Below, piece after piece: positions 32,692 to 48,522 of a stretch of 64,000 nt of DNA; the stretch's first letter is position 1, and each line of letters starts with the position of its first letter. This stretch comes from Pycnococcus provasolii (Eukaryota; Chlorophyta; Pseudoscourfieldiophyceae; Pseudoscourfieldiales; Pycnococcaceae), in the NCBI GenBank assembly GCA_938743325.2, contig OW568880.1, positions 186,001 through 250,000 on the forward strand. The letters are read 5' to 3'. A program made the translations under genes and the position numbers. The notes below the pieces were generated by a model that was not told where the DNA came from, made no database searches, and was given only the letters and a program-made list of their open reading frames with translations.

Positions 32692-34881
32692 TTATGACGT
32701 CGCCGGCATGACCACGCTTCCGACACACATCATCAGCAGAAGGGTAATACTTAGACTTTCTGACGATGAGCTGCGCGAGGTTTGCGCGACCAGCAGGGCA
32801 ACGGCGCTGCGGTTCAACATCACACTGGTGTGAAGGACCTTGTCGCCCTGCACGAGGTGCTCGAGCACCACCTCGGGACTGACGGTTCTCTCACGCCGCA
32901 CAAAGGCGTACAGGGGGCGGAGCCGGTCACAGTCGACGGTCGCGCGTTCCTGCCCTACCTCCCGTCGATGGTTCCAGCCGCCGCGCGCGCACGAGAAGAA
33001 CTGGTCCCCATACTTGCGCCGTGCGTACAGGATGCTGCGTCCCGGCGCGTCAAAGAGCTGGCCATGGAAGACCTTCTTGACCGTCGGCAGTATCCAGTCG
33101 CGTTGGTAGACGTTCTGCGGGTCCGGGCGGCCAGCCGCCGCCGTCAATCTGGCGGGGTGAAAATATCCAGGAGGTGGACGACGAGAGGCAGGGTCCGTTG
33201 AGGTTGCAAGCAGACGTCGCCATGGTGAACGACTGGGAGCAATCTTCTGCCACATGTGCGTCGCGTTGCTGCGCAGCGTGAACACGTCGACGAACGGGTA
33301 CCCCCACGGGAGTTTGCCAGCCTTGGGCGAGTCTTTGTAAAACACTTTGAAGTATTGCCCACCTGTCGTTATCGCCGTCATGCCCGTACGGCCTTCGCGC
33401 ATCTCCACGTCGTTTTTCACGCAGACGTCCTCGTCCTCGTTGCCGACGACGTACATGTCGGCGTCGTCGTCCCACGGCAGTCGGCGGTGCATGACAAGCG
33501 CGCCGGCGAGGGTCCCGGCTGCGAGCATGGCGGTCGTACCGCATCGATGGGCGGCGGCCTGGACCTCCTGCATAAGGCTGACGAACCGTGCATCCTCGGC
33601 CGCACTAACGGTGTCATTGAAGAAGGCGGCAAGCTCGTCCGCCCGCGGCGGCTGCGGGGGGTTCGTGGCGTTACTGGCGTAGGTCCGGCTGTCGAACGGC
33701 TGTGCATTTTCTTCGCCGTGTATGCGACGAGGCAGCTCCACTGATGTTGGCATAGCAGCACTCTGGTTTGTTCGAGCAACTAGGGCAACGGCGCTGCGGT
33801 TCAACATCACACTGGTGTGAAGGACCTTGTCGCCCTGCACGAGGTGCTCGAGCACCACCTCGGGGCTGGCGGTTTTCTCACGCCGCACAAAGGCGTACAG
33901 GGGCCGGAGCCGGTCACAGTCGACGGTCACGCGTTCCTGCCCTACCTCCCGTCGATGGTTCCAGCCGCCGCGCGCGCACGAGAAGAACTGGTCCCCATAC
34001 TTGTGCCGTACGTACAGGATGCTGCGCCCCGGCGCGTCAAAGAGCTTGCCATGGAAGACCTTCTTGACCGTCGGCAGTATCCAGTCGCGTTGGTAGACGT
34101 TCTGCGGGTCCGGGCGGTCAGCCTTCGTCTTCTGCCACATGTGCGTCGCGTTGCTGCGCAGCGTAGACACGTCGACGAATGGGTACCCCCACGGCAGTTT
34201 GCCAGCCTTGGGCGAGTCTTTGTAAAACACTTTGAAGTATTGCCCACCTGTCGTTATCGCCGTCATGCCCGTACGGCCTTCGCGCATCTCCACGTCGTTT
34301 TTCACGCAGACGTCCTCGTCCTCGTTGCCGACGACGTGCATGTCGGCGTCGTCGTCCCACGGCAGTCGGCGGTGCATGACAAGCGCGCCGGTGAGGGTCC
34401 CGTATGCGAGCATGGCGGTTGTACCGCATCGATGGGCGGCGGCCTGGACCTCCTGCATAAGGCTGACGAACCGTGCATCCTCGGCCGCACTAACGGTGTC
34501 ATTGAAGAAGGCGGCAAGCTCGTCCGCCTGCGGCGGCTGCGGGGGGTTGCCATGGCGCCGGAGTCTTCCCCAATTGTTGAGTGCTGCTGATGTTGGCATA
34601 GCATTGTAACTGTGGACGAACATCTGGTTTGTTCGAGCATGAAGATTCGTTCTCGTCGCCATCATTCGACGATGTTCATCAGCAGAGGAGGAGGATAGCG
34701 CCAATAAATCGCGTCGGGTCATAGTACTCATCATCAGGGAGGTTGTGTGTCTGATGGTGATGAGCACGCTTACGATCAGGAGGAGAGCGACAATCGGAAG
34801 AGCCTTTCGCAGCAGCATGCGCGATGATGATGAAGAAGAAGCGCGACGTGACGACGGCTGCTGCTGTGTTCTCATCATCAT
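32692..34881 (-). CDS. Type II membrane protein with two tandem LicD transferase domains
   Basis: A 729-residue protein. The start chosen is the first ATG of the run MMMRTQQQPSSRRASSSSS, shared with three other genes in this region; further upstream only GTG is in frame. A signal anchor (about 26-46, LLRKALPIVALLLIVSVLIT) and a Ser/Arg/Asn-rich stem precede two copies of a LicD/fukutin-type domain. Each has AFFNDTVSAAEDARFVSLMQ, CGTTAMLA, GALVMHRRLPWDDDADM and GYPFVDV. LicD proteins transfer phosphocholine or other phospho-alcohols to glycans. The DDDAD is the expected catalytic acidic motif. The copies derive from a 987-bp tandem duplication; the second carries an extra stretch of about 34 residues before GRPDPQNVYQRD. 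Golgi lumen action on surface glycans is inferred. Confidence 0.8.
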   Translation of the reverse strand: MMMRTQQQPSSRRASSSSSSRMLLRKALPIVALLLIVSVLITIRHTTSLMMSTMTRRDLLALSSSSADEHRRMMATRTNLHARTNQMFVHSYNAMPTSAALNNWGRLRRHGNPPQPPQADELAAFFNDTVSAAEDARFVSLMQEVQAAAHRCGTTAMLAYGTLTGALVMHRRLPWDDDADMHVVGNEDEDVCVKNDVEMREGRTGMTAITTGGQYFKVFYKDSPKAGKLPWGYPFVDVSTLRSNATHMWQKTKADRPDPQNVYQRDWILPTVKKVFHGKLFDAPGRSILYVRHKYGDQFFSCARGGWNHRREVGQERVTVDCDRLRPLYAFVRREKTASPEVVLEHLVQGDKVLHTSVMLNRSAVALVARTNQSAAMPTSVELPRRIHGEENAQPFDSRTYASNATNPPQPPRADELAAFFNDTVSAAEDARFVSLMQEVQAAAHRCGTTAMLAAGTLAGALVMHRRLPWDDDADMYVVGNEDEDVCVKNDVEMREGRTGMTAITTGGQYFKVFYKDSPKAGKLPWGYPFVDVFTLRSNATHMWQKIAPSRSPWRRLLATSTDPASRRPPPGYFHPARLTAAAGRPDPQNVYQRDWILPTVKKVFHGQLFDAPGRSILYARRKYGDQFFSCARGGWNHRREVGQERATVDCDRLRPLYAFVRRERTVSPEVVLEHLVQGDKVLHTSVMLNRSAVALLVAQTSRSSSSESLSITLLLMMCVGSVVMPATS
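32795..34555 (-). repeat. 987-bp tandem duplication of the LicD domain
   Basis: Two near-identical direct copies (about 32795-33670 and 33782-34555) are offset by 987 bp, a multiple of three, so the frame is kept. Between them lies a short stem segment also found in the GT8 gene. The low divergence suggests recent duplication or ongoing homogenisation. Confidence 0.85.
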
Positions 34882-35189
34882 GTCGTTGCTGTTATGTGCC
34901 ACCACGAGCACGATGTTGTTGAGCGTGGCGGTGTTTTGGCGCGTGAAGAGGCGCAGGAGGAGCGCGTGCACGTCGCTCCACCAGCGGTTGCAACAAGAAT
35001 GATGACAGCTGAGGGCTGGTAGATGAAATAAGTTGAAAATAACGCACTGCCGTGGTCGAGGCGCGGGGGGCCGGTTTGCAAACGAGGGGAAGAAATCGAT
35101 TTGGAAAACATTAACCCCGAATTCAACTTCCCTCAGACCCTCTCGTCGTCCCGAGCAGAAAGGGTGCTCATGGACGTGGTGGACAACAG
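34766..35189 (-). repeat. Shared promoter/anchor cassette, copy B1
   Basis: This block contains the promoter, 5' leader and anchor codons of the LicD gene. It is almost identical to B2 (36391-36820), with a few substitutions and small indels over about 425 bp. Its anchor-coding half is also homologous to the A repeats. Similarity begins inside the membrane anchor and ends at GGACGTGGTG, after which the two loci are unrelated. Confidence 0.85.
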
Positions 35190-35354
35190 TAAGTTTTTTT
35201 TCACATATCGTACGCGTTCTTCGTCCTCTCTAGGCATGCCCGCGCAATGCATGGCGTGAGGTTGGGCGTCAGCTGGAAGGAAAAAAAGCCGGCACACCAG
35301 ATACGTTTATTTTGTTGTTGCCATTAAGGTCTGAAAAGAAAAAAGGTGGAAAAC

Positions 35355-35609
35355 ATGCCACTTGTTCGTACTCAGTGAGGTTCCAAACGTGCAGCTTGGT
35401 TACCATGGAGGCATACTGCGTGCTCACGCGCCCGCCGGTGCTGTAGCGCTCCACGCGCCTAAAAACCAGCCAAGGCACGTCGAGCGACCGCAGGTATGCC
35501 AGGAGCCAGGAGGTCCGGCTTGATCTCGTCCGTGTAGAGCACCACGACGTCGGCCCCGTGCGAGTTGAAGCGGCCGACGCTCCGTGCGAACAGCGCTGTG
35601 TTCACCATG
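35355..35609 (-). pseudogene. GT8 glycosyltransferase fragment
   Basis: About 255 bp match the first third of the GT8 domain at 37470-37730: MNTALFARSVGRFNSHGADV-like, VVLYTDEIKPDLLA and WLVFRRVERYSTG are readable, but in different frames because of small indels. The DxD motif and everything after it are absent, and no promoter or anchor precedes it. It sits just downstream of the sulfotransferase gene on the same strand. It is a dead remnant or a silent sequence reservoir. Confidence 0.8.
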
Positions 35610-35648
35610 ACACGTAGTGCGCGCGCTCTGCGAGGCGCACAATGCAAG

Positions 35649-36506
35649 TCAGTTTTGTTTATGTTTATGTTTATGTTTATGTTTATGTTTATGTCGCCGT
35701 TTATCACGTTTACCAACGCACTCCACGTTATCTGTCGTGTAGCCATTCCGGTTTGCATGCGCAACTTTCGAAAAAGTACACTCGGAGACATTCAACCAGC
35801 GAACAAGCCGATTGAAATTTTGTATCGAGAATTCTTCGAGAGGTATTTGAAATGCGGACTCGCGATTCTCGTTGGACCAATTCACCAGGTCTTCGTTTCT
35901 TTTTGTCAATGCTTCCACCGTCGTTTGCCGATGAAATTGAGACCGGTGCTGACTCTCCGTATCTTTTCGAAAGTTTACCACAAATTTAGCACACGGGAAC
36001 AGCTCTTTCATAAAATCGAGCTGCCGCAGGTCGTATCGAATCTCCTTCCAGCCAATCGCAGCATGTATGCCTATGGCGCCAATGGCAGTGCGCGCATACC
36101 GTTGCAACTCACACAAAATCTCCTTTTTCTTAACATCGGCGTGATACCATGCACCAATATCTGTTGGGGTGCCTCTAGGTCCAAAGCCCGTTCGCTTAGC
36201 ATCTTCATACAACTCGTGCAGACACTTCGCCATGCCCTTGTTTTCTCCCGCCAAGTACAACGACGGGATTGCGTTCAGCATTTCGAGGATGGTGGTAGAC
36301 CCAGATCTGCCGGTCGCTACTACAAAAACCCATGTGTTGTCTCGGCAGATGTCACAAACTCTCTTGTTGTCATTCGCATTACCTTGCGCTACGCTTACGA
36401 GCAGGAGGAGAGCGACAATCGGAAGAGCCTTTCGCAGCAGCATGCGCGATGATGATGAAGAAGAAGCGCGACGTGACGACGGCTGCTGCTGTGTTCTCAT
36501 CATCAT
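35649..36506 (-). CDS. Type II membrane sulfotransferase
   Basis: A 285-residue protein beginning MMMRTQQQPSSRRASSSSSS and the shared signal anchor (RMLLRKALPIVALLLLVSV), then directly the catalytic domain. The PAPS 5'-phosphosulfate loop is VFVVATGRSGSTTILEML (about residues 56-73). The 3'-phosphate site is FVVNFRKDTESQHRS with the expected Arg and Ser. This identifies a carbohydrate-type sulfotransferase that moves sulfate from PAPS to a glycan in the Golgi. It lacks the stem found in its LicD and GT8 neighbours. The C-terminus ends in a Lys-His run coded by a TTTATG repeat. Its anchor half is nearly identical to the LicD gene while the catalytic half is unrelated and more AT-rich. Confidence 0.85.
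   Translation of the reverse strand: MMMRTQQQPSSRRASSSSSSRMLLRKALPIVALLLLVSVAQGNANDNKRVCDICRDNTWVFVVATGRSGSTTILEMLNAIPSLYLAGENKGMAKCLHELYEDAKRTGFGPRGTPTDIGAWYHADVKKKEILCELQRYARTAIGAIGIHAAIGWKEIRYDLRQLDFMKELFPCAKFVVNFRKDTESQHRSQFHRQTTVEALTKRNEDLVNWSNENRESAFQIPLEEFSIQNFNRLVRWLNVSECTFSKVAHANRNGYTTDNVECVGKRDKRRHKHKHKHKHKHKQN
35656..35693. repeat. TTTATG hexanucleotide repeat
   Basis: Six to seven tandem copies of TTTATG encode the alternating His-Lys tail of the sulfotransferase on the minus strand. Length changes here would only alter the tail. Confidence 0.85.
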
Positions 36507-36820
36507 GTCTTTGCTGCTATGTGCCACCACGAGCACGATGTTGTTGAGCGTGGCGGTGTTTTGGCGCGTGAAGAGGCGCAGGAGGAGCGCGTGCACGTCG
36601 CTCCACCAGCGGTTGCAACAAGAATGATGACAGCTGAGGGCTGGTAGATGAAATAAGTTGAAAATAACGCACCGCCGTGGTCGAGGCGCGGGGGGCCGGT
36701 TTGCAAACGAGGGGAAAAAGAAATCGATTTGGAAAACTATTAACCCCGAATTCAACTTCCCTCAGACCCTCTCGTCGTCCCGAGCAGAAAGGGTGCTCAT
36801 GGACGTGGTGACCAGTAAGT
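36391..36820 (-). repeat. Shared promoter/anchor cassette, copy B2
   Basis: The second copy of the B cassette carries the promoter, leader and anchor start of the sulfotransferase gene. Compared with B1 it has only scattered substitutions and indels (for example an extra AAAAG near 36716). Both copies contain the divergent-strand word ATGGACGTGGTG followed by a GTAAGT-like site, perhaps a relic of a former divergent partner gene. Confidence 0.85.
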
Positions 36821-36957
36821 ACAAGACTTGTTCGTTCGTTACATTCCCCATCGTCGGTTGGGTATTATTTCTTCACCATCTAGTACAACGTAGTCTTCGC
36901 GTTGTACTTCACGATTCTCCCCTCCCTCCTCGTCAACGTCAGGAGAGCTCCGAAGCC

Positions 36958-38400
36958 TCACCCCCTCCTGGGAGACCTCCGCGGCTCCGCCCGACTCCTC
37001 CATTCCCTTTGCCTTTCATTGATGCGAGGCTCGCTGAATTCTAAAGAGTCCACCGAGAGGCAGAGTTTCAAGCGCTTCAGTTCCGCGTTCCAAAATAGCT
37101 CAGGCTCGGGGAATTTGGCACGCAGTTCCCACCACTTCTCGTGCAGGGCGACGGTCTCGCCGCTGCTCACATCATTCTTGCCCGGCTTCAGCACGTTATA
37201 AACGCCGGGCAACCGCTTCCACGTGTTGTTGAATAGGGAATTCAGCATGTCTTGCTCCCCAAATCTCTTGTTCTTTGCCAGGTCCATAGAGTTCAGGAGG
37301 TGCGCAAAGGTGTCAGCGGAAGGCCGCAAGACCATGAACCCCGAGTTGAAGTAGTCGTCACTCATACCGGGTCGCGGATAGTCCCGGACCGCACAAAACT
37401 CCGCCTGGCCGCAGGCGTCAAATACCTGCGCGGGGTCTTTCATGACGATCATATCCGAGTCGAAGTATGCCACTTGTTCGTATTCAGTGAGATTCCAAAC
37501 GTGCAGCTTGGTTACCGTGGAGGCATAGTGCTGGTGCTCCCCCATAGTGCCGGTGCTGTAGCGCTCCACGCGCCTAAAAACCAGCCAAGGCACGTCGAGC
37601 GACCGCAGGTTTGCCAGGAGGTCCGGCTTGATATCGTCCGTGTAGAGCACCACGACGTCGGCCCCGTGCGAGTTGAAGCGGCCGACGCTCCGCGCGAACA
37701 GCGCTGTGTTCATCATGTACTTGAGCGTGGACTTGCTATGAGCGGTGGTGAGCAGCGTGGCGTAGGCCCGGCTGTGGAACGACTGTGAATTGTTTTCGCC
37801 GTGTATGCGACGAGGCAGCCGCTCCACTGATGTTGGCATAGCATTCTGGTTTGTTCGAGCATGAAGATTCGTTCTCGTCGCCATCATTCGACGATGTTCA
37901 GCAGAGGAGGAGGCCCGGCTGTGGAACGACTGTGAATTGTTTTCGCCGTGTATGCGACGAGGCAGCCCGCGCTCCACTGATGTTGGCATAGCATTCTGGT
38001 TTGTTCGAGCATGAAGATTCGTTCTCGTCGCCATCATTCGACGATGTTCAGCAGAGGAGGAGGCCCGGCTGTGGAACGACTGTGAATTGTTTTCGCCGTG
38101 TATGCGACGAGGCAGCCCGCGCTCCACTGATGTTGGCATAGCATTCTGGTTTGTTCGAGCATGAAGATTCGTTCTCGTCGCCATCATTCGACGATGTTCA
38201 GCAGAGGAGGAGGATAGCGCCAATAAATCGCGTCGGGTCGTAGTACTCATCATCAGGGAGGTTGTGAATCTGATGTTGATGAGCACGCTTACGAGCAGGA
38301 GGGAAGCGACAATCGGAAGAACCACTCGCAGCAGCATGCGCGATGATGATGAAGAAGAAGCGCGACGTGACGACGGCTGCTCCTGTGTTCTCATCATCAT
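36958..38400 (-). CDS. Type II membrane GT8 (glycogenin-like) glycosyltransferase
   Basis: A 480-residue protein starting at the shared MMMRTQEQPSSRRASSS; an in-frame ATG at 38583 would add 61 residues but lies in the leader. After the signal anchor comes a stem with three 49-50-residue repeats (EHRRMMATRTNLHARTNQNA, PRRIHGENNSQSFHSRA). The GT8 domain follows: MNTALFARSVGRFNSHGADV, VVLYTDDIKPD, YASTVTKLHVWNLTEYEQV, AYFDSDMIVMKDP with the metal-binding DxD (about residue 313), DDYFNSGFMVLRPSADTF and FGEQDMLNSLF. This is the full GT8 series of glycogenin/galactinol-synthase-type enzymes that transfer UDP-sugars. Golgi glycan synthesis is inferred. Confidence 0.85.
   Translation of the reverse strand: MMMRTQEQPSSRRASSSSSSRMLLRVVLPIVASLLLVSVLINIRFTTSLMMSTTTRRDLLALSSSSAEHRRMMATRTNLHARTNQNAMPTSVERGLPRRIHGENNSQSFHSRASSSAEHRRMMATRTNLHARTNQNAMPTSVERGLPRRIHGENNSQSFHSRASSSAEHRRMMATRTNLHARTNQNAMPTSVERLPRRIHGENNSQSFHSRAYATLLTTAHSKSTLKYMMNTALFARSVGRFNSHGADVVVLYTDDIKPDLLANLRSLDVPWLVFRRVERYSTGTMGEHQHYASTVTKLHVWNLTEYEQVAYFDSDMIVMKDPAQVFDACGQAEFCAVRDYPRPGMSDDYFNSGFMVLRPSADTFAHLLNSMDLAKNKRFGEQDMLNSLFNNTWKRLPGVYNVLKPGKNDVSSGETVALHEKWWELRAKFPEPELFWNAELKRLKLCLSVDSLEFSEPRINERQREWRSRAEPRRSPRRG
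37766..38217 (-). repeat. Stem-region tandem repeat, three copies of 147-150 bp
   Basis: Three in-frame copies begin near 37771, 37918 and 38068. They differ mainly by a 3-bp indel (GGCAGCCGCTCC against GGCAGCCCGCGCTCC). The same unit, in part, forms the stem between the two LicD domains (about 33699-33780) and behind the LicD anchor (about 34585-34700). It spaces the catalytic domain from the membrane. Confidence 0.85.
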
Positions 38401-38922
38401 GTCGTTGCTGTTATGTGCCACCACGAGCACGATGATGTTTGCAACAAGAATGACAGCTGATGAGGGCTGGTGGATGAAATAAGTTGAAAGTAACGCATCG
38501 TGGGGCGGGGCAAGTTTGCATACTGTGGGCGCGCCACAGCGTACGGCGAAGATAAAGCCCCCGCCGATGAGCGCGCACGCCATTCCCGCCCACCATGTCG
38601 GTAGCGCGAGGAAATCGATATGGAAAACGAACCTCTCACTCTGACCCACTGTCGTCGATCGATCGATCAGTCGGGGAACTCACTCAATTGGGGGTTCCGA
38701 CTTACGTGACGTGACGTCAAGCTCTAGGGAGGGATTCCCCTCCTCCACACAGCCCATCAGGGTCGGGTAGCCTCCCTCCCTCCCTCCATCCAATTGATCA
38801 GTTTTGATGGCGTCTTCCTCGCTCGCATTCATTCTAACACGTTACGATGATGAATGAAGAGTTCAACAACAACTCTATGAAAAGGAATAATAATCATGGT
38901 GTGCACAGCTGTGTCGCTCGGT
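38241..38922. repeat. Bidirectional promoter/anchor cassette, copy A1
   Basis: A 682-bp block nearly identical to A2 (41498-42174). It carries, leftward, the anchor codons, leader and promoter of the GT8 gene and, rightward, a promoter plus the first 20-odd codons of a short-chain dehydrogenase (MMNEEFNNN..HGVHSCVAR) that then runs into a stop. So A1 holds a dead 5' end of the gene that is intact next to A2. It differs from A2 by a TCTATG insertion and single-base changes. Confidence 0.9.
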
Positions 38923-39144
38923 TGTGAGACTAACCCCGAACTAGACAACGTATATATGTTGCTCATACCTCAAGTTTCCTTTCTACTTGTTTTTCTCTTA
39001 AGAAAGGCTTGAATCGCGACTCAGGTGTTGCAAGTTTTGCGTGCGTTACTTACTTACACGAAGGAATCGGTCAACGTGCGTGTTACTTACTTTCCGAATT
39101 TGGGAAGTGAGCTTGGAATATATCCAGGTGGGCAGGACACGCGC

Positions 39145-40536
39145 ATGATAGTAGTTAGTCACACGACCACTGCACGAATAAGTTTTGCTGCCACAGTCTT
39201 TTTATTGTTATTCTTGTCGCATTGTTTGAAGCTTTTTGCCTGGGTCCAGACCGAAGCGTCATCAACACATTCCCTTGTGAAACGTTCACCAGTTGTGTCA
39301 CAATCAAGACGACAAAATGTTTATAATGACTCTGTTCCTGCCACTCCAGCAAACGGATACGTCGTTCCGTTCCTTACTGGACAGGGTGTAAACAACCAGA
39401 TCTGGGAATACAGGTCTGCTATGGCCATCGCGAAAGAGGCAAACAGAAAGCTATGTCTTGTACCTTTCCAGCGTTTCTACCTCAGTGACGGTAGTAAGTT
39501 CGACAACCCCTCGCTACGTGTTGCGGGGGTCACGGAGTATGGACTTCCGTTTGACCTGTTTTTTGACGAACAGGCAATCGGCACTCTGGGCGTGCAGACA
39601 GCTACCGTCAGAGAGTGCTCAGTTGCTTGCCGCCGCCGACCGCCGTGCACGCTACACTTCACATCGCACAATATTCACAGAGTGGCAGACTGGCGACCAG
39701 GATCTATACATCGCTTTACCGCGACGACAGGAATTTCACGCCTCAAAGTATCGGACATCCGGGCAGCGCGACCTGGACGCAATGTGCTTGCGCAGTGCAA
39801 ACCTAATGACTGCGCGATACTTGTGTCCGCAAAGCACCCAACCGCGCAAGATAACATCGAAATCACCAACGCACTTGGACCATCGCGTTCGATTCAAGAG
39901 CTTGCATGGTGGGTGAAGCGCAACGTTCTACGCCTAGAAGATGAAGACGTCTTCGCGTGCATCCACTGGCGCCTAGAAGAGACGAAGTGCAGAGGACTTG
40001 GTATGGGGCTGAGTGACGGACGCAGCGCGTCTGATGGTGAGAGAGAGGCACACTTGGGATCACCGCTGTGCTTTCCAAACGTTCCAGATCAAAATCTCAT
40101 TGAGCTCCCGACTAAGAGTAGTAAGCGTGTGCTAGGTACCGTCGCTCACTTCGTCGACGTGCTTAAGGCGTTCAAAGATCGCGTGCATGCGCGCGGCATA
40201 CTGCTTGCAACTGACTGCCATGACGTGGGACTGCTGGGATTAGTCGAGCGCGAGGGTGGTGTCATCGCGCTCTCGTCCGCGCTAAAGCGCTTGATTGCCT
40301 CTCCGCCCGAGCTGGCGGATGGTGAGGTGCGTAGCCGAGTCGAGCAGACGCTTTGTAGTGCGGCAAATGGATTCCTCGGAAGCACGTACTCATCTTGGTC
40401 AGAAACGGTATTTCGCTGGAGGAATGCCGCGAGTGGACGCGATGGGTACCAGCGCGGGTCTTTCATAGACGACACGATGGAAGGTGCCCTCGAGGTGGAA
40501 ATGTTGCATGCCATCAAACGCAATAGCGCGAATTGA
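39145..40536 (+). CDS. Type II membrane O-fucosyltransferase-like protein
   Basis: A 463-residue protein from ATG 39145; the frame upstream begins only at GTG. A signal anchor (about 11-33, ISFAATVFLLLFLSHCLKLF) unlike that of its neighbours is followed by GQGVNNQIWEYRSAMAIAKE and LCLVPF, which match the N-terminal donor-site motif of the GDP-fucose O-FucT family. FACIHWRLEE occupies the place of the HxRxxDFE motif, and FLGSTYSSWSETVFRWR that of the C-terminal acceptor motif. Fucosyl transfer to protein or glycan in the ER/Golgi is inferred. It lies just beyond the plus-strand side of cassette A1, about 220 bp after the dead dehydrogenase start, so it may use that promoter. Confidence 0.75.
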   Translation: MIVVSHTTTARISFAATVFLLLFLSHCLKLFAWVQTEASSTHSLVKRSPVVSQSRRQNVYNDSVPATPANGYVVPFLTGQGVNNQIWEYRSAMAIAKEANRKLCLVPFQRFYLSDGSKFDNPSLRVAGVTEYGLPFDLFFDEQAIGTLGVQTATVRECSVACRRRPPCTLHFTSHNIHRVADWRPGSIHRFTATTGISRLKVSDIRAARPGRNVLAQCKPNDCAILVSAKHPTAQDNIEITNALGPSRSIQELAWWVKRNVLRLEDEDVFACIHWRLEETKCRGLGMGLSDGRSASDGEREAHLGSPLCFPNVPDQNLIELPTKSSKRVLGTVAHFVDVLKAFKDRVHARGILLATDCHDVGLLGLVEREGGVIALSSALKRLIASPPELADGEVRSRVEQTLCSAANGFLGSTYSSWSETVFRWRNAASGRDGYQRGSFIDDTMEGALEVEMLHAIKRNSAN

Positions 40537-40649
40537 GCATGATCGCTGTTACACAATTGTAACAAAGCGCCGAGTCCACCACCGCCTCCGACGAGCCTGC
40601 CTCCGCCACCTCCGCCGGTACCACCACCACCTCCATCACATCCACCTCT

Positions 40650-41657
40650 TCACCTGCCTTTTCCTGTACTAAGTTCGTCGCCGTCTTGTTGTTTATTTGT
40701 GTGCGTCATAGAAAGATCTGAGGCGAGATCCCTGAGCAAAGATACTTTTGGCGAATCTCCATTGGAAGACTCACGTCGATTGAAAATAAGAGAGGTGTGT
40801 TTGCGCATCATCCACGTATTCCAATTAACCTCGCGGTATGTAACCACAACTTGCTCTCTAACCATTCTGGCAAAGTCGTCTACTGCACCCTTTACCGCCT
40901 GACCTGTTTCGTCAATTGTACCGTCGTAGTTTAAAGTCCAGTCTTGTTTGCCAACATCCGACTGAGTCACGTAATCGTGTCCTGCAAAAATTCCTCCTGG
41001 CTTAACTTTAGGCCACCATGCAAGCAAATCTTCAGTCACTCCTTTGCGATCATGCCTGGCATCGACATACACATAATCTAGCGATTCATCTGGAATCGAG
41101 TTGGCACAATTCAACGTAAAGTTTCGGCAAACAAACACAACATCTTGGAAAGCGGCGAGCCGTCTTAAAGTTTCACGATATCTGGCTTCTTGTTCGTCGT
41201 AGTTCACATTAGCAATATCCTTGTAGTTCTCCATATGCTTCCATGCATCGACCAGAAGGTAGTACGAACACGACTTCCAAGAGGATAGGGTTTCGCTCGC
41301 GAAGAGTCCACGCTGAACACCAAGTTCTGCGCCACGAGAAAATCCTTGTTGTTCCAGGAAAGCTCCTATCTCATTCCGTGTTCTCAGAGGAGGAAATATT
41401 TCAACTTCAATATTTCGTTTTGTCGAGTTGGCGATTGCCAATTTAGGATAACTCTTCGCAAAGCTTGCGGTATCCTGCAGGGTAGCACCTTCATCAATAG
41501 TACTCATCATCAGGGAGGTTGTGAATCTGATGTTGATGAGCACGCTTACGAGCAGGAGGGAAGCGACAATCGGAAGAACCACTCGCAGCAGCATGCGCGA
41601 TGATGATGAAGAAGAAGCGCGACGTGACGACGGCTGCTCCTGTGTTCTCATCATCAT
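40650..41657 (-). CDS. Type II membrane SAM-dependent methyltransferase (copy 1)
   Basis: A 335-residue protein with the shared start MMMRTQEQPSSRRASSSS and anchor, then a short linker (SMMSTIDEGATLQDTAS-like) and a class I methyltransferase domain. Motif I is RGAELGVQRGLFASE. The acidic strand is YYLLVDAWKHM, then LDYVYVDARHDRKGVTEDL and WWPKVKPGGIFAGHDYV. The VDARHD..EDL..WWPKxKPGG series is typical of the Methyltransf_24 family, often linked to sugar O-methylation. The catalytic part appears identical to that of the gene at 47328, but anchor, linker and C-terminal tail (ending DGDELSTGKGR) differ. Golgi O-methylation of glycans is inferred. Confidence 0.85.
   Translation of the reverse strand: MMMRTQEQPSSRRASSSSSSRMLLRVVLPIVASLLLVSVLINIRFTTSLMMSTIDEGATLQDTASFAKSYPKLAIANSTKRNIEVEIFPPLRTRNEIGAFLEQQGFSRGAELGVQRGLFASETLSSWKSCSYYLLVDAWKHMENYKDIANVNYDEQEARYRETLRRLAAFQDVVFVCRNFTLNCANSIPDESLDYVYVDARHDRKGVTEDLLAWWPKVKPGGIFAGHDYVTQSDVGKQDWTLNYDGTIDETGQAVKGAVDDFARMVREQVVVTYREVNWNTWMMRKHTSLIFNRRESSNGDSPKVSLLRDLASDLSMTHTNKQQDGDELSTGKGR
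40687..41417 (-). repeat. 731-bp inverted duplicate, methyltransferase module copy 1
   Basis: This block is the reverse complement of 47526-48256. Lengths are equal, and in every stretch compared by eye no difference was found. The edges fall just before the catalytic domain (NIEVEIF) and just after it, so the duplicated unit equals the enzyme module. By hand count, a 60-base line of the partner copy (47701-47760) is 25/60 G+C, against 38/60 in a LicD line (33961-34020). Confidence 0.9.
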
Positions 41658-42174
41658 GTCGTTGCTGTTATGTGCCACCACGAGCACGATGATGTTTGCA
41701 ACAAGAATGACAGCTGATGAGGGCTGGTGGATGAAATAAGTTGAAAGTAACGCATCGTGGGGCGGGGCAAGTTTGCATACTGTGGGCGCGCCACAGCGTA
41801 CGGCGAAGATAAAGCCCCCGCCGATGAGCGCGCACGCCATTCCCGCCCACCATGTCGGTGAGCGCGAGGAAATCGATATGGAAAACGAACCTCTCACTCT
41901 GACCCACTGTCGTCGATCGATCGATCAGTCGGGGAACTCACTCAATTGGGGGTTCCGACTTACGTGACGTGACGTCAAGCTCTAGGGAGGGATTCCCCTC
42001 CTCCACACAGCCCATCAGGGTCGGGTAGCCTCCCTCCCTCCCTCCATCCAATTGATCAGTTTTGATGGCGTCTTCCTCGCTCGCATTCATTCTAACACGT
42101 TACGATGATGAATGAAGAGTTCAACAACAACAAAAGGAATAATAATCATGGTGTGCACAGCTGTGTCGCTCGGT
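41498..42174. repeat. Bidirectional promoter/anchor cassette, copy A2
   Basis: Near-identical partner of A1. Here the leftward side serves the methyltransferase gene and the rightward side the intact dehydrogenase at 42105. Similarity starts inside the anchor/stem codons (TAGTACTCATCATCAGGGAG) and ends 70 bp into the dehydrogenase gene. Confidence 0.9.
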
Positions 42175-43259: not shown

Positions 43260-43285
43260 TGGCTGTGTTGGAGACGAGAGCACGC

Positions 43286-43530
43286 TTACCCTCTTCTGAA
43301 ATAACCCCTTTTCCTATCTTTTCCGGTAACGACCAGCCCACCAGTTCTTCCGGGAGAAAAGTCATATCCGACACGACCGCCGAGCAATCCTCGATCCGCC
43401 ACCAGAAGATCGTCATTAGCGGATTCCGGTTCCAGAGCCTCTACTTGCTGAACAACATCATCATCGAGCAAGTTACGAAGGCGGCGGCGATCGTCGAAGA
43501 TCCCTGGATCAACGTATGAAAACCCGCCCG
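43286..43530 (-). pseudogene. Fragment of the small secreted acidic protein family
   Basis: The minus strand reads GGFSYVDPGIFDDRRRLRN, LLDDDVV, then DLLVADRGLLGGRVGYDFSP and GRTGGLVV. These are segments of the proteins at 43874 and 45336 but in a different order, without a signal peptide of the family. It suggests that the family is built of a repeated module and that this copy is a rearranged remnant. Confidence 0.6.
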
Positions 43531-43614
43531 TAGGATGTACGTTGATGTACGTATTCTTCTCAAAAAGCAAAAAAGTTATCAACAAGATGATGGGCTGCGT
43601 GGCGCTCAAGAAGC

Positions 43615-43690
43615 GAAGAATCTCGCGTTGGCGCTAGAGGAGCGCGCGCGAAGCTGGACTACCTCTAGTGCGTTGATTTGTAATGACTGT
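43615..43690 (+). pseudogene. 3'-end fragment of the dehydrogenase gene (two copies)
   Basis: CGAATCTCGCGTTGGCGCT and the following 55 bp match the last codons and stop region of the dehydrogenase (43180-43260) with small deletions. A second copy lies at 45078-45152 within duplication D. They show that repeated segmental copying included the dehydrogenase tail. Confidence 0.75.
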
Positions 43691-43873
43691 GTGTAAAGGG
43701 CTAGAGGCTGTAAAAAGGTAAAAAGTGTTTAATGTTTCGTGAAATCTGAGGGAAAGTGTGTATCATTCAAATGTTGCAACAAATTGATCTTCTTCTCCTC
43801 CTTATCGCTCGTGTGTTCCACTCACTGGTTGTGAATTGTTCTTCTTGTTGTTGTGTGCATGATGCACCACCGA

Positions 43874-44344
43874 TTACGGGATACGATTTTCTTCTCGGAG
43901 GCGTTCCGAGTTTGCGATTTCAGGCAAATACGTGCCATCTCGAATCGTAGGGTCACTGAGTGCCGCGGGATCTTCGCTCAAGTATGAGCGATCCACCGCC
44001 AGCTCAAATTCCGGAGCAGGCGCCATGTCGAGAACAACATCATCATCGAGCAAGTTACGAAGGCGGCGGCGATCGTCATGGCTATCCTCAACGACCAACC
44101 CGCCACCACTTCCTAGAGGAGAAAAGTCATATCCGACACGACCACCGAGCAATCCTCGATCCGCCGCCAGAACATCGTCACCAGCGGGTTCCGGTGCCAG
44201 AGCCTCATCTTGCTGCTCGACGACTTCTGACTCCGAAGCTTCCTGTGCAGTCAACGACAACACCGGCGCATCATCATCCCCGGCGGCGACGACAGCGATC
44301 AAAGAAGCGAGCACCACCACCATCATCATCATTAACTTCGCCAT
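43874..44344 (-). CDS. Small secreted acidic protein, copy 1
   Basis: A 156-residue protein from ATG 44344. A strong signal peptide (MAKLMMMMVVVLASLIAVVA) is followed by acidic sequence with SLTAQEASESEVVEQQDEAL, APEPAGDDVLAADRG, LLGGRVGYDFSP, DDRRRLRNLLDDDVV and VDRSYLSEDPAALSDPTIRD. No family is recognised. The Arg-rich doublets (DDRRRLRN) and the ADRG/GLLGG junction could be processing sites, which is inference. A nearly identical copy lies at 45336, and rearranged fragments at 43286 and 46160. The APEPAxGDD..RGxxGxRxGY motif also appears in the TSP1 protein at 59998. Confidence 0.7.
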   Translation of the reverse strand: MAKLMMMMVVVLASLIAVVAAGDDDAPVLSLTAQEASESEVVEQQDEALAPEPAGDDVLAADRGLLGGRVGYDFSPLGSGGGLVVEDSHDDRRRLRNLLDDDVVLDMAPAPEFELAVDRSYLSEDPAALSDPTIRDGTYLPEIANSERLREENRIP

Positions 44345-44701
44345 CGTTCACGTTTGCAAGTACAAGTATGGAGTACGGACCACGCAAAAACTGAATTAGG
44401 GCGCGGGAGAACTTGGTCGGGGATTTTCAAATCCGACCTTTTTTCTCGTTTTTCTCGTCGCGCAGCAGCCCCCCCCGGCCTGCTTCGCGCCGGCCTGCTT
44501 CAGCTTTTCACTTCTCCTCTTTTGCACACGTCACTTGTGCTGTGAGTCATGTCCGCTGCTGCCTCCACCCCCGCCTCCTCCCCCCTCTCCGCATCGTAGC
44601 TACGCATCGAGACGTTTGAATCAGCGGTTGCCGTCGACGACGATGAAAATCCCACCGCGTCGTGTCGGAGAGATACGTTCCACAAACCACACACATATAG
44701 T

Positions 44702-44971
44702 ATGTTGGAGCGCAAGGCTGTGATCAAGAACACTGACATGTCCGAGGACATGCAGCAGGAAGCTATTGACTCCGCGACGCAGGCGCTTGAGAAGTACAAT
44801 ATCGAGAAGGACATTGCTGAGTTCATGAAGAAGGAGTTCGACAAGAAATACAACCCCACTTGGCACTGCATCGTTGGCCGCAACTTCGGCTCCTACGTGA
44901 CGCACGAGACCAAGCACTTTATCTACTTCTACCTCGGCGAGGTGGCGATCCTCCTGTTCAAGTCGGGATAA
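44702..44971 (+). CDS. DYNLL: Dynein light chain LC8
   Basis: An 89-residue protein from ATG 44702, exactly the usual LC8 length. It contains [60 protein letters not shown] and [20 protein letters not shown], which agree with animal and algal LC8 almost residue for residue. LC8 is a dimeric hub of dynein, intraflagellar transport and other complexes. It lies between the two copies of duplication D, whose second copy carries its promoter region but not its coding sequence. The gene itself was therefore not duplicated, or its second copy was lost. Confidence 0.97.
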
Positions 44972-44987
44972 GCTATCTCAGCTCGGC

Positions 44988-46109
44988 CGTAGGATGTACG
45001 TTGATGTACGTATTCTTCTCAAAAAGCAAAAACGTTATCAACAAGAAGATGATGGGCTGCGTGGCGCTCAAGAAGCGAAGAATCTCGCGTTGGCGCTAGA
45101 GGAGCGCGCGCGAAGCTGGACTACCTCTAGTGCGTTGATTTGTAATGACTGTGTGTAAAGGGCTAGAGGCTGTAAAAAGGTAAAAAGTGTTTAATGTTTC
45201 GTGAAATCTGAGGGAAAGTGTGTATCATTCAAATGTTGCAACAAATTGATCTTCTTCTCCTCCTTATCGCTCGTGTGTTCCACTCACTGGTTGTGAATTG
45301 TTCTTCTTGTTGTTGTGTGCATGATGCACCACCGATTACGGGATACGATTTTCTTCTCGGAGGCGTTCCGAGTTTGCGATTTCAGGCAAATACGTGCCAT
45401 CTCGAATCGTAGGGTCGCTGAGTGCCGCGGGATCTTCGCTCAAGTATGAGCGATCCACCGCCAGCTCAAACTCCGGAGCAGGTGCCATGTCGAGAACAAC
45501 ATCATCATCGAGCAAGTTACGAAGGCGGCGGCGATCGTCATGGCGATCCTCAACGACCAGCCCACCAGTTCTTCCGGGAGAAAAGTCATATCCGACACGA
45601 CCACCGAGCAATCCTCGATCCGCCGCCAGAACATCGTCACCAGCGGGTTCCGGTGCCAGAGCCTCATCTTGCTGCTCGATGACTTCTGACTCCGAAGCTT
45701 CCTGTGCAGTCAACGACAACACCGGCGCATCATCATCCCCGGCGGCGACGACAGCGATCAAAGAAGCGAGCACCACCACCATCATCATCATTAACTTCGC
45801 CATCGTTCCGTTTCCAAGTACAAGTATGGAGTACGGACCACGCAAAAACTGAATTAGGGCGCGGGAGAACTTGGTCGGGGATTTTCCATCCGACCTTTTT
45901 TCTCGTTTTTCTCGTCGCGCAGCAGCCCCCCCCCCCCCCGGCCTGCTTCGCGCGCTTGTTCAGCTTTTCACTTCTCCTCTTTTGCACACGTCACTTGTGC
46001 TGTGAGTCTTTAATGTCCGCCGCCGCCGCCGCCGCCTCCTCCTCCACCCCCGCCTCCTCCTCCTTCTCCGTATCGGAGATACGCATCGAGACGTTTGAAT
46101 CAGCCAGAG
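44988..46109. repeat. Tandem duplication D, copy 2
   Basis: Repeats 43529-44634. It ends just where the LC8 leader would continue (ACGCATCGAGACGTTTGAATCAG), after which the sequence is unrelated. It contains a C-run and GCC-repeat expansion (about 45927-45940 and 46019-46035) relative to copy 1. Confidence 0.85.
45336..45803 (-). CDS. Small secreted acidic protein, copy 2
   Basis: A 155-residue protein from ATG 45803, nearly identical to the gene at 43874. The visible difference is SPGRTGGLVVEDRHDD in place of SPLGSGGGLVVEDSHDD. Signal peptide, acidic body and DDRRRLRN motif are kept, and the frame is intact, so both copies are likely functional. The orientation is convergent towards the LC8 gene at 44702. 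Function unknown. Confidence 0.7.
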   Translation of the reverse strand: MAKLMMMMVVVLASLIAVVAAGDDDAPVLSLTAQEASESEVIEQQDEALAPEPAGDDVLAADRGLLGGRVGYDFSPGRTGGLVVEDRHDDRRRLRNLLDDDVVLDMAPAPEFELAVDRSYLSEDPAALSDPTIRDGTYLPEIANSERLREENRIP

Positions 46110-46159
46110 TTCTTATTTATTTCAAGTATACAAAGGTCATTGGCGTTCGTCTAGAATAA

Positions 46160-46340
46160 CAGGCATCATCATCGAGCAAATTACAAAGGAAGGCAGCGGC
46201 GATCGTCATTGATCCCTGGCTCAACGTATGAAAACCCGACCGTACTTCCGGGAGAACGAGAGACCATCCGACACGAGCTTCGAGCGAGTATTCCTCGATT
46301 CGCCGCCAGAAGATCAACGTTCCACGGCATCTGCCACGTG
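46160..46340 (-). pseudogene. Degenerate fragment of the small secreted protein family
   Basis: Readable pieces are DLLAANRGILA, FSYVEPGINDDRR and NLLDDDA in broken frames, in the same order as in the 43286 fragment. It lies just beyond duplication D and marks a third, older copy event. Confidence 0.55.
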
Positions 46341-46529
46341 AGCACTTCAATCTGTCGGCAAGTCTGGCTGCACGTACAACGGCCTTGAGATGGTCTGAGC
46401 GAGCTCGCCGTATATGTGCTTCGCGTCACTCGTTAGCAGATTTTGGTAAATGCTCACCTCGTATTCGTGACTCGCGTAGTCTCTGCCCTCTACTTCCATG
46501 GGCACAGTACTCAAAGCCTTTGGCAAGTA

Positions 46530-46997
46530 GACTTCAACCCCATTCACCGAGAGGCTTGGGCTAACTCTTCGTGTTGCCCGTGGCAGTACAATAATGATGT
46601 GACACGTTTCCTTTCATCTGGGATATCTGATTGGGATGCGTATGCGCAAGCGTACAAATCGCGAGCTATACAGCAGCCAGTCCGAAGATTAGATCTGACA
46701 CGTGGAAAACGCGCACTATGCTTGATGGACGTAGTGTGCGTTCTGAGCGACTTCGACGCGTGCATGAATCGTATCAAGACGCTTTTCAATATAACGAAAA
46801 GTTCATCTATGCTTGTAGAGAGCTTAGATCGTCATCAGACGCCAACAAGACCGAAAACTATCAGCCACGACGCTCTTAAATTGATTGAGTCGCGAAATAC
46901 GCTTGACGTGAAACTCTATGAGTGGGCGAATGTACACTGCAAATACGGCCAGTGCAAGTGCGGAAACATCCCCACACCTGACACCTCCCACACCTGA
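46530..46997 (+). pseudogene. 3' half of a sulfotransferase gene without promoter or anchor
   Basis: An open frame without a suitable ATG encodes FNPIHREAWANSSCCPWQYN (NP.HR like the 3'-phosphate region), WDAYAQAYKSRAIQQPV, a Cys-rich helix and the C-terminal pattern RPKTISHDALKLIESRNTLD followed by VKLYEWA. The latter is typical of the end of Golgi sulfotransferases (L..LN.LDxELYxYA). The PAPS-loop half is missing. The frame is open to its natural end at 46997, so it is either a recent truncation or a silent module. It is a different sulfotransferase type from the gene at 35649. Confidence 0.6.
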
Positions 46998-47327
46998 CAC
47001 CTCCGACACCTCCATTGCGACTTTATGATCAATAAAGTCATATTTTATTATGCAATAACATAATTTTTATGCGTGTTGATGTAAGAGCCGAATGGGACAT
47101 CACGTTGTTAGTTTTCCCTAAAACCCGAACGGTGACATCACGTTGTTAGTTTTCCCTCCCGCAGAAGATTTCGATTTCCGATTTGTTCCCCCCGAACCCA
47201 ACCCCGGTCGAAGTTTTCAAATAACGCCGCATTCGTGCGTTACACGTTACACATCGTCGCATAACCCACGAATATACGAAACGCGCGCACACAACTGCTA
47301 CTAGTGCTCTTCACGCGTATACACGTC
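46998..47327. other. Intergenic region with a short direct repeat
   Basis: GACATCACGTTGTTAGTTTT with CCCT occurs twice (about 47097-47120 and 47132-47155). AT-rich AATAAAGTCATATTTTATTATG at 47031-47052 may be the poly(A) region of the fragment upstream. The remainder is the promoter of the methyltransferase at 47328. Confidence 0.5.
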
Positions 47328-48356
47328 ATGCGACCGAAAGCGAATCCTGGCACTGACGGTGGTGGTGGTGGTGGTCGTCGTCGCCCGCGTAGGACAGCCT
47401 GGTGTGCGTCGATCCTTCTCGTCGTCACCACGCTCGTCGCGCTGAACATTGTCGGCGTGATTCTGAGAAGTGCCCCGGAAAGGGAGACGACGGATCAAAC
47501 GTATCGTCGTCAAATGCCATTTGACCGAAATATTGAAGTTGAAATATTTCCTCCTCTGAGAACACGGAATGAGATAGGAGCTTTCCTGGAACAACAAGGA
47601 TTTTCTCGTGGCGCAGAACTTGGTGTTCAGCGTGGACTCTTCGCGAGCGAAACCCTATCCTCTTGGAAGTCGTGTTCGTACTACCTTCTGGTCGATGCAT
47701 GGAAGCATATGGAGAACTACAAGGATATTGCTAATGTGAACTACGACGAACAAGAAGCCAGATATCGTGAAACTTTAAGACGGCTCGCCGCTTTCCAAGA
47801 TGTTGTGTTTGTTTGCCGAAACTTTACGTTGAATTGTGCCAACTCGATTCCAGATGAATCGCTAGATTATGTGTATGTCGATGCCAGGCATGATCGCAAA
47901 GGAGTGACTGAAGATTTGCTTGCATGGTGGCCTAAAGTTAAGCCAGGAGGAATTTTTGCAGGACACGATTACGTGACTCAGTCGGATGTTGGCAAACAAG
48001 ACTGGACTTTAAACTACGACGGTACAATTGACGAAACAGGTCAGGCGGTAAAGGGTGCAGTAGACGACTTTGCCAGAATGGTTAGAGAGCAAGTTGTGGT
48101 TACATACCGCGAGGTTAATTGGAATACGTGGATGATGCGCAAACACACCTCTCTTATTTTCAATCGACGTGAGTCTTCCAATGGAGATTCGCCAAAAGTA
48201 TCTTTGCTCAGGGATCTCGCCTCAGATCTTTCTATGACGCACACAAATAAACAACATGGGGCTATTGCGAACAGTATAAAACGCAGAGTAAAGAGAGAGA
48301 AATCTTTACGCGTGCGCCGTCAATCTCAACCGCGCCGTACGCTTCGAAGCGCTTGA
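47328..48356 (+). CDS. Type II membrane SAM-dependent methyltransferase (copy 2)
   Basis: A 342-residue protein from ATG 47328. The N-terminus MRPKANPGTDGGGGGGRRRP and the anchor (TAWCASILLVVTTLVALNIVG) are unrelated to the anchor of copy 1. From NIEVEIF onward the catalytic domain is the same as in copy 1 (GAELGVQRG, VDARHD, WWPKVKPGG). The two proteins part again after MTHTNKQ. The C-terminal tail here is basic (IKRRVKREKSLRVRRQSQ) and lies antisense to a gene fragment at 48262-48522, so the tail is probably a fortuitous fusion. Function as for copy 1. Confidence 0.85.
   Translation: MRPKANPGTDGGGGGGRRRPRRTAWCASILLVVTTLVALNIVGVILRSAPERETTDQTYRRQMPFDRNIEVEIFPPLRTRNEIGAFLEQQGFSRGAELGVQRGLFASETLSSWKSCSYYLLVDAWKHMENYKDIANVNYDEQEARYRETLRRLAAFQDVVFVCRNFTLNCANSIPDESLDYVYVDARHDRKGVTEDLLAWWPKVKPGGIFAGHDYVTQSDVGKQDWTLNYDGTIDETGQAVKGAVDDFARMVREQVVVTYREVNWNTWMMRKHTSLIFNRRESSNGDSPKVSLLRDLASDLSMTHTNKQHGAIANSIKRRVKREKSLRVRRQSQPRRTLRSA
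47526..48256 (+). repeat. 731-bp inverted duplicate, methyltransferase module copy 2
   Basis: Reverse complement of 40687-41417. The left edge falls between the linker and the catalytic domain, the right edge a few codons after it. The two copies are about 6.1 kb apart. Confidence 0.9.
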
Positions 48357-48522
48357 GCCACCACGGCCATGGTTTGATAACCTCGTGTAACCATGGATCA
48401 TTTTTCTCACTTCCAAACTTCTCCGGTTTCTCGTTCAAGCCAACTTGGAACCACAGATAATCTTTTGCAACTCGAACAAGCTGGCAGATGCTCCGGTCGA
48501 AGTCTTGCCGCATAAAAAGCAA
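48262..48522 (-). pseudogene. Unidentified enzyme fragment antisense to the methyltransferase tail
   Basis: The minus strand reads MRQDFDRSICQLVRVAKDYL, WFQVGLNEKPEKFG, DPWLHEVIKPWPWWLKRFEA and YGAVEIDGARVKISLS. The amino-acid pattern (Trp/Pro clusters, regular strands) looks like the C-terminal part of a folded enzyme, but the family was not recognised. No anchor or catalytic core is present upstream. Its end overlaps the 3' end of the gene at 47328, on the opposite strand. Confidence 0.45.

Follow-up and report, generated by a model that had tools for sequence, protein, structure and literature searches.

The picoalga Pycnococcus provasolii probably (probability about 0.8) carries a dispersed family of glycan enzymes with type-II signal anchors, the genes of which are built of exchangeable promoter/anchor, stem and catalytic modules and have been shuffled by recombination. 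Promoter and N-terminal anchor came as one of at least three unrelated leaders (L1, R and H). The same leader was found before unrelated modules and the same module behind unrelated leaders, as expected of domain shuffling by recombination. The window (the whole stretch of 64,000 nucleotides analysed) is carried by contig C20; C3, C5 and similar codes also denote contigs of the P. provasolii assembly.

Four minus-strand ORFs within 32692-41840 shared the start MMMRTQ(Q/E)QPSSRRASS and almost the same hydrophobic segment, beyond which they diverged, as the initial annotation had described. The domains were identified with Pfam as LicD (PF04991, E 1.7e-15), Sulfotransfer_3 (PF13469, 1.5e-7), GT8 (PF01501, 2.6e-11) and Methyltransf_24 (PF13578, 9e-14). 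The features of these genes are:

32692..34881, minus strand, L1-LicD gene: L1 leader followed by two LicD domains in tandem, separated by a stem element of the GT8 gene
33676..33778, minus strand, this stem element, common with the GT8 stem, between the two LicD domains
34766..35194, minus strand, B cassette of the LicD gene: upstream region and L1 leader, 97.2% identical over 433 bp to 36391-36820
35649..36506, minus strand, L1-Sulfotransfer_3 gene: L1 leader first, GTTTAT microsatellite at the end
36391..36820, minus strand, B cassette of the sulfotransferase gene: upstream region and L1 leader
36958..38400, minus strand, L1-GT8 gene, with a second in-frame ATG at 38583
37764..38213, minus strand, GT8 gene stem, with three 150-bp repeats matching at 99%
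38241..38922, minus strand, A cassette of the GT8 gene: 683 bp aligned with 41498-42174, zero mismatches
40650..41657, minus strand, L1-Methyltransf_24 gene (MT1), with a second in-frame ATG at 41840
41498..42174, minus strand, A cassette of MT1, a copy of that of the GT8 gene

The single common promoter previously proposed for these genes was replaced by two versions, A and B, with only short blocks in common upstream of the ATG. The two copies of the A cassette were 99.0% identical over 683 bp, differing in gaps only.

A fifth cassette gene, with leader R, is present in the window, and its methyltransferase module is a second copy of that of MT1:

40687..41417, minus strand, methyltransferase module copy 1, 731/731 bp identical to 47526-48256, inverted
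47119..47516, plus strand, R cassette of the fifth gene: 209 bp upstream and the first 189 bp of coding sequence
47328..48356, plus strand, R-Methyltransf_24 gene (MT2), with the R leader
47526..48256, plus strand, methyltransferase module copy 2, identical to copy 1

Exactly the same module therefore stands behind L1 in MT1 and behind R in MT2. The R cassette of MT2 was 99.7% identical to C5:411480-411877 (1 mismatch in 398 bp) and thus both parts of this gene have near-perfect copies elsewhere. The edges of the module were without long homology, and none of the six other genomic PF13578 loci matched it better than E 0.01. The hand-counted G+C values that had been offered as a sign of mosaic composition (38/60 and 25/60) were reproduced, in a window with 55.6% G+C, although the second of the two lines (47701) belongs to the fifth gene, with its different leader. 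A weak likeness was observed between AIANSTKR, upstream of the module of MT1, and AIANSIKR, downstream of that of MT2.

The cassettes are not confined to the window: copies with different modules behind them were found on other contigs. Leader counts were obtained from first-look candidates and are lower bounds. L1 was present in at least six genes on three contigs, four in the window and one each on C3 and C26, the C26 gene sharing the leader and not the upstream region. R was present in at least nine genes on six contigs (C20, C5, C40, C8, C10 and C14), with seven kinds of domain behind it, and a promoter-only piece of R was found on C7; one R copy (C40) stands before a truncated polyketide synthase. 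H was present in at least five genes on C5, C7 and C24, among them an H-PF04488 gene starting at C5:323043, besides diverged copies on C6 and C18. The GT8 copies of C20 and C3, 96.8% identical over 894 bp, lie behind promoter A and a B-like promoter, respectively.

Stems are shared as well. A 103-bp stem was 100% identical in an F-FkbM, an R-GT8 and an H-YibB gene, with different leaders and different catalytic domains.

Ordinary tandem duplication and decay, with leaders and modules copied by segmental duplication and the occasional chimera a chance fusion of no functional consequence, appears rather unlikely. Tandem arrays are clear (R genes on C5, H genes on C5, LicD domains, GT8 stem repeats), and broken pieces do occur, namely a GT8 remnant at 35326-35617, fragments of 190 bp on C17 and 310 bp on C26, and a frameshift on C8. 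Nevertheless, duplication alone does not account for R before seven domain kinds on six contigs or for a module that occurs behind two leaders, and 21 of the 22 leader-module joins remain in frame, the exception being that on C8. The control set points in the same direction: among 40 non-overlapping ORFs of at least 250 aa from 124 kb of C20, C3 and C26, compared within the extracted DNA set, eight had a repeated 5' segment. These were seven cassette genes and a divergently transcribed SDR gene abutting cassette A, this last being the only exception among the 33 non-cassette ORFs; the other 32 shared no 5' segment.

The 5' edge of the R cassette was near-constant in four settings, and its 3' edge was variable, a pattern that random crossing-over leaves unexplained. 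The copies C5a, C5b/c and C40 start at one and the same base (GGACGTAAAACCCGAA) in different flanks, and that on C20 starts within 5 bases of it. Chimeric retrocopies, in which a reverse transcriptase jumps to a leader mRNA while copying a module mRNA and the cDNA is then inserted, would account for the constant 5' edge and for the contiguous ORFs. Such an origin is nonetheless improbable, since the 3' edge of the methyltransferase module carries no poly-A tract, L1 and H cassettes have no constant 5' edge of the R type, and recombination fits better with the joins inside stems and with the stem that three genes have in identical form.

Three leaderless fragments were found in all, two of which adjoin cassette genes:

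35326..35617, minus strand, remnant of a GT8 catalytic module, frame-broken and leaderless, just 3' of the sulfotransferase gene
C17:156352-156541, leaderless fragment of 190 bp
C26:466234-466542, leaderless fragment of about 310 bp

The first of them was 92.7% identical to the C3 GT8 gene over 259 bp, in agreement with the promoterless GT8 pieces annotated initially. The corresponding sulfotransferase pieces were not recovered: tblastn revealed no fragment in the window, and the single match in the genome was the gene itself.

Silent-cassette antigenic variation is known from VSG, vlsE and pilS, with near-identical tracts. Programmed variation of this type, with fragments and paralogues as silent donors whose sequence is copied, inside a clone, into cassettes that are expressed, is very improbable in P. 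provasolii. The leaderless fragments and the near-identical copies, inverted and direct, would fit such a scheme. On the other hand, all 22 genes carry a leader of their own, there was no sign of a single expression site, the genes occur on ten contigs and in most cases lie far from a contig end, and the fragments are only three; the comparison made in the initial annotation is thus not supported so far.

Relatives of several genes were found in other assemblies and in a metagenome, and the between-strain join points given here derive from proteins and not from DNA. The FkbM module at C5:409224, behind leader F, shared 632 of 633 residues (99.84%) with the metagenome protein P0127, which has leader R and comes from a single short contig (2,711 bp), its cluster comprising 15 members. 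Residues 1-113 of P0127 also matched R-GT8, at 98%, which places the join inside the shared 35-residue stem. The YibB-like module stands behind leader H on C7 and behind leader R in P0129, from another P. provasolii assembly (NCBI, 873-kb contig), and the H/R changeover also falls in shared stem sequence. The YibB assignment is weak, the C7 protein being barely over the Pfam cut-off and P0129 under it. A domain X is inserted in the C7 protein and absent from P0129 and P0137. Also, P0150 carries a GT92/GT2-like domain behind L1. Differences in pairing between samples, proposed as a check of the shuffling, were thus observed at protein level for FkbM (F/R) and YibB (H/R), while three other pairings were unchanged: R-GT69 of C5 in P0132 (99.6%), L1-Q of C26 in P0153 of Pseudoscourfieldia marina (97.5%) and the R-GT47-like gene of C10 in P0138 (97.7%). 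The A-type leader also recurs in other data (P0143); the LicD, sulfotransferase, MT1 and MT2 joins were not recovered there. Taken together, the genome-wide cassettes, the differing modules and the differing pairings in the other assembly and the metagenome strongly support the view that catalytic modules have moved to positions behind shared leaders. Sequences repeated at 100% identity may be collapsed or misjoined, yet an assembly error behind the near-identical cassettes and chimeras is barely conceivable, given the distinct flanks of the cassette copies inspected, the recurrence of R-GT69, L1-Q, R-GT47-like and the A-type leader elsewhere, and the reported quality of the assembly (HiFi, 444-fold coverage, QV 58.2; PMC11130579).

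The predicted architecture was that of Golgi type-II glycan enzymes, with a short basic N-tail, a membrane anchor, a stem and a catalytic domain. The leader supplied the best hydrophobic segment (1.99-2.67) in 39 of the 41 proteins scored, and the 15 residues ahead of this segment contained 1-6 K/R; of the other two, P0137 has no leader, and the H-PF04488 protein of C5 was left out of account because its translation was out of frame. LicD has a further hydrophobic stretch at the C-terminus (1.96). The LicD family model gave 0 matches over the genome, missing the window gene itself, and a protein query was used in its place. Pfam recognised glycan-enzyme domains in these proteins, the exceptions being modules X, Q and D, which had no Pfam match, and the polyketide synthase of C40. 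Searches of PDB by sequence gave nothing for X, nothing better than 0.26 for Q and nothing better than 0.063 for D; P0136, a database relative of the C10 genes, matched exostosin GT47 chains at 1.7e-7. NCBIfam gave nothing above cut-off for P0153, P0134, P0128, P0131, D or the C18 protein. For dN/dS, the 117-nt leaders are too short to be of use.

A viral origin, considered for three proteins on their matches in IMG/VR, was rejected. The X-domain protein P0134 had 3 pattern matches, 0 of them confirmed, L1-GT8 had no pattern match, and the relatives of the methyltransferase module were at 29-41% among the best 80 of at least 392. The sulfotransferase had no relative in bacterial genomes (591 pattern matches, 0 confirmed).

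Under recombination shuffling, ectopic crossing-over or gene conversion would find its homology in the leaders and stems, which are near-identical over about 100-700 bp, and an exchange would join the promoter, anchor and stem of one gene to the catalytic module of another. The survivors would mostly be in-frame products keeping the anchor and the catalytic domain. Sharp-edged joins with low homology, such as those of the methyltransferase module, would need end-joining or template switching. New pairings may alter the timing and the place of action of each enzyme within the Golgi, and cell-surface glycans would thereby diversify; such an effect on surface-glycan chemistry is suggested by the enzyme families and their predicted topology. 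More tentatively, the leaders and stems might be kept near-identical as landing sites for recombination. They would then belong to a eukaryotic system for generating diversity, in which promoter, Golgi anchor and surface-glycan catalytic chemistry are reassorted under virus or grazer pressure, fast enough for strains of one species to differ in pairings and module content; we regard this as possible, if doubtful.

If the shuffling is real, P. provasolii offers a natural counterpart of the anchor and stem swaps between glycan enzymes made by hand by glyco-engineers, and a concrete way for a picoalga to alter its surface chemistry without inventing enzymes. The divergence of algal glycan repertoires between strains becomes directly testable with existing strain genomes. 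The data also suggest that the N-termini of such enzymes are unfit for inferring orthology in these algae.

No description of shared anchors of glycan enzymes was found in the titles and abstract openings searched, which is no proof of absence. As in exon shuffling, functional protein modules are recombined, but the joins lie within continuous ORFs, at varying positions between the membrane segment and the stem end, and not at introns. Crinkler (CRN) effectors of oomycetes have a shared N-terminus and recombine at its junction. They and the P. provasolii proteins alike combine an N-terminal targeting part with differing C-terminal domains. Crinklers are effectors acting in the host, whereas the proteins described here are membrane-anchored glycan enzymes with several leader families, in which promoter and stem are also exchanged. 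One of the Crinklers, CRN8, is termed a modular protein (PMC3426532). Bacterial CDI/Rhs toxins have polymorphic C-terminal regions (PMC3150448) and orphan modules (PMC3967940); these are bacterial toxins with immunity genes, whereas the genes of P. provasolii are eukaryotic and nuclear, lie scattered over chromosomes and showed no immunity logic. Neither Crinkler nor polymorphic-toxin domains were above the Pfam cut-off in the proteins scanned. In Ostreococcus tauri, chromosome 19, the viral immunity chromosome, changed in size in 34 of the 36 resistant lines tested (PMC5082852). A single low-G+C outlier chromosome of that type does not describe P. provasolii, given its ten contigs and the base composition of the window: O. 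tauri has whole genes on one chromosome, and P. provasolii gene pieces on ten contigs.

The cassette genes of Pycnococcus provasolii, a marine green alga whose cells are small, coccoid and walled (PMC11130579), are mosaics with near-identical shared tracts. A total of 22 was found in the genome analysed (46 contigs, 32,333,900 bases; the CCAP190/2 assembly is described as 32.2 Mb in 44 pseudomolecules and two organelle genomes, HiFi 444-fold, QV 58.2 (PMC11130579)), and the join between leader (N-terminal signal-anchor segment) and module was in frame in 21 of them. Leader L1 is carried by six genes, four in the window (C20:186001-250000), a GT8 gene on C3 and a gene on C26 whose module, Q, has no Pfam match and whose upstream region differs from those of the other L1 genes. 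The unrelated leader R is carried by nine genes and leader H by five, on C5, C7 and C24:

C20, 47328..48356 (+): MT2, R and Methyltransf_24 (MT24)
C5: R and GT8 (two genes); R and GT69/CAP59
C40: R and polyketide synthase
C8: R and domain X, out of frame
C10: R and a GT47-like domain (two genes; relative P0136 against PDB exostosins, 1.7e-7)
C14: R and GT17
C7: R promoter piece, leaderless
C5: H, D (no Pfam match) and PF04488; H and D alone; H and X
C7: H and HtrL_YibB (24.7 bits, cut-off 24.1), with an X insertion
C24: H and Sulfotransfer_2
C6: diverged H copy and X
C18: diverged H copy and a possible FkbM-like methyltransferase (E 0.11)

The C40 copy (C40:9776-11608), the sole R copy seen ahead of a non-glycan enzyme, has promoter and anchor in frame with a truncated polyketide synthase ORF (open frame 3,113 codons). 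Downstream (3') of the C26 gene lies a 310-bp copy (94.5%) of a C5 GT8 module (C26:466234-466542), and the 3' end of the C26 gene recurs as a 190-bp, 100% identical copy at C17:156352-156541.

As the initial annotation proposed, one leader is common to four minus-strand genes of the window, followed by two LicD domains, Sulfotransfer_3, GT8 or Methyltransf_24 (ORF and Pfam). The promoter it described as common to all four is shared only within pairs, version B by LicD and sulfotransferase and version A by GT8 and methyltransferase; of the gene fragments it reported between them, a GT8 remnant (35326-35617, minus strand) lies 3' of the sulfotransferase gene, and a sulfotransferase fragment was found neither in the window nor in the genome. 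Third-position G+C was 75-81% in LicD, 77% in GT8, 50% in sulfotransferase and 41% in methyltransferase modules, and 56-62% in the four L1 leaders. The GT8 gene stem, between anchor and catalytic module, consists of three copies of a 150-bp unit, and a piece of it lies between the two LicD domains. GT29 sialyltransferase-like genes occur near L1 genes on both C20 and C3 (window 51600-53009; C3:953159-954964). Beside the SDR gene, which adjoins cassette A, a small protein gene, its product probably secreted, is tandemly duplicated (window 43525-46104; 1,129 bp aligned, 94.8%).

The fifth gene, MT2, contains a second methyltransferase module, identical over 731/731 bp to that of the L1 gene MT1 (40650..41657, minus strand), behind leader R. 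Its R cassette (47119-47516) differs from C5:411480-411877 by one mismatch in 398 bases; thus each part of MT2 has a near-perfect counterpart at another place, in different company. The boundaries are sharp. AIANSTKR precedes the module in MT1 (41418-41460) and AIANSIKR follows it in MT2 (48257-48290), possibly a trace of an older repeat. Methyltransf_24 is fused to GT8 or PF05637 in other database sequences (P0012, P0013, P0025, P0109), so the domain partners glycosyltransferases elsewhere too.

Other modules also occur behind several leaders. X was found behind R, behind H and inside H-YibB; Q behind L1 on C26 and, 64% identical, on C1 after an N-terminus without detectable similarity. Between C20 and C3 the GT8 copies are 96.8% identical over 894 bp; promoter A precedes the former and a B-like promoter the latter. 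F-FkbM (C5:409524), R-GT8 (C5:411926) and H-YibB (C7:639179) share a 103-bp stem without a single difference. Among 40 non-overlapping control ORFs of at least 250 aa (124 kb of C20, C3 and C26), compared with the retrieved DNA rather than the whole genome, a repeated 5' segment was present in eight (seven cassette genes and the SDR gene) and absent in 32.

At the protein level, different pairings were detected in another assembly and in a metagenome. P0127 (ENA metagenome, 15 members, 2,711 bp contig) joins R and an R-GT8-type stem to an FkbM module 99.84% identical over 633 residues to that of the leader-F gene, with the changeover within the shared 35-residue stem. P0129 (P. provasolii, NCBI) has R and YibB, against H and YibB in this genome, again changing over in the stem; the X insertion of the C7 gene is absent from P0129 and P0137. 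R also precedes Methyltransf_22 (P0130), PF04488 (P0133) and, with and without stem, a further domain without Pfam match (P0128, P0131; QMMARFNRGD is repeated at the P0128 changeover). P0135, an FkbM relative (85%) behind an R variant, and P0136, GT47-like, have similar N-termini; P0150 combines L1 and GT92/GT2-like; P0142 (C3 type) and P0143 (A type) share one tail after different upstream sequences. Counting against swapping, P0132, P0138 and P0153 retain the pairing of this genome. No match above 61% to the MT module was found among the best 120 of 252, and the 24 matches to the L1-GT8 module included full-length relatives at only 33-41% (best 45% over 16% of the query). Since other assemblies of P. 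provasolii contribute proteins to the database, these results give a hint of modules specific to strains, conditional on gene prediction and search reach.

Ectopic homologous recombination within leader and stem tracts would build such mosaics, as suggested by the stem changeovers of P0127 and P0129 and by F-FkbM and R-GT8, neighbours that are separated by 266 bp, share their orientation and carry the identical stem. Array fragments have moved too: the C24 H gene is followed by a stretch of at least 103 bp that recurs, identical over 103 bp, ahead of the C7 H cassette. Although the flanks differ, the 5' edge of the R cassette is constant (C5:411475 and C40:9771; window 47119, within 5 bases) and may mark where transcription begins or where a unit ends; its 3' end varies. 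The constant edge and the MT module are not explained by leader or stem recombination, and template switching or cDNA may have contributed to them. Hydropathy was consistent with a signal anchor in 39 of 41 proteins scored (the LicD C-terminus is also hydrophobic), and we infer that the enzymes reside in the Golgi and act on surface glycans.

In the titles and abstract openings examined, no description of a constant N-terminus with swapped C-termini was found for glycan enzymes. Crinklers and CDI/Rhs proteins, in which a constant N-terminus is combined with exchanged C-termini, follow the same logic as the cassette genes. On chromosome 19 of Ostreococcus tauri, duplicated glycosyltransferases are shifted in a modular way and size changes occur in virus-resistant lines (PMC5082852); there, unlike in P. 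provasolii, whole genes move.
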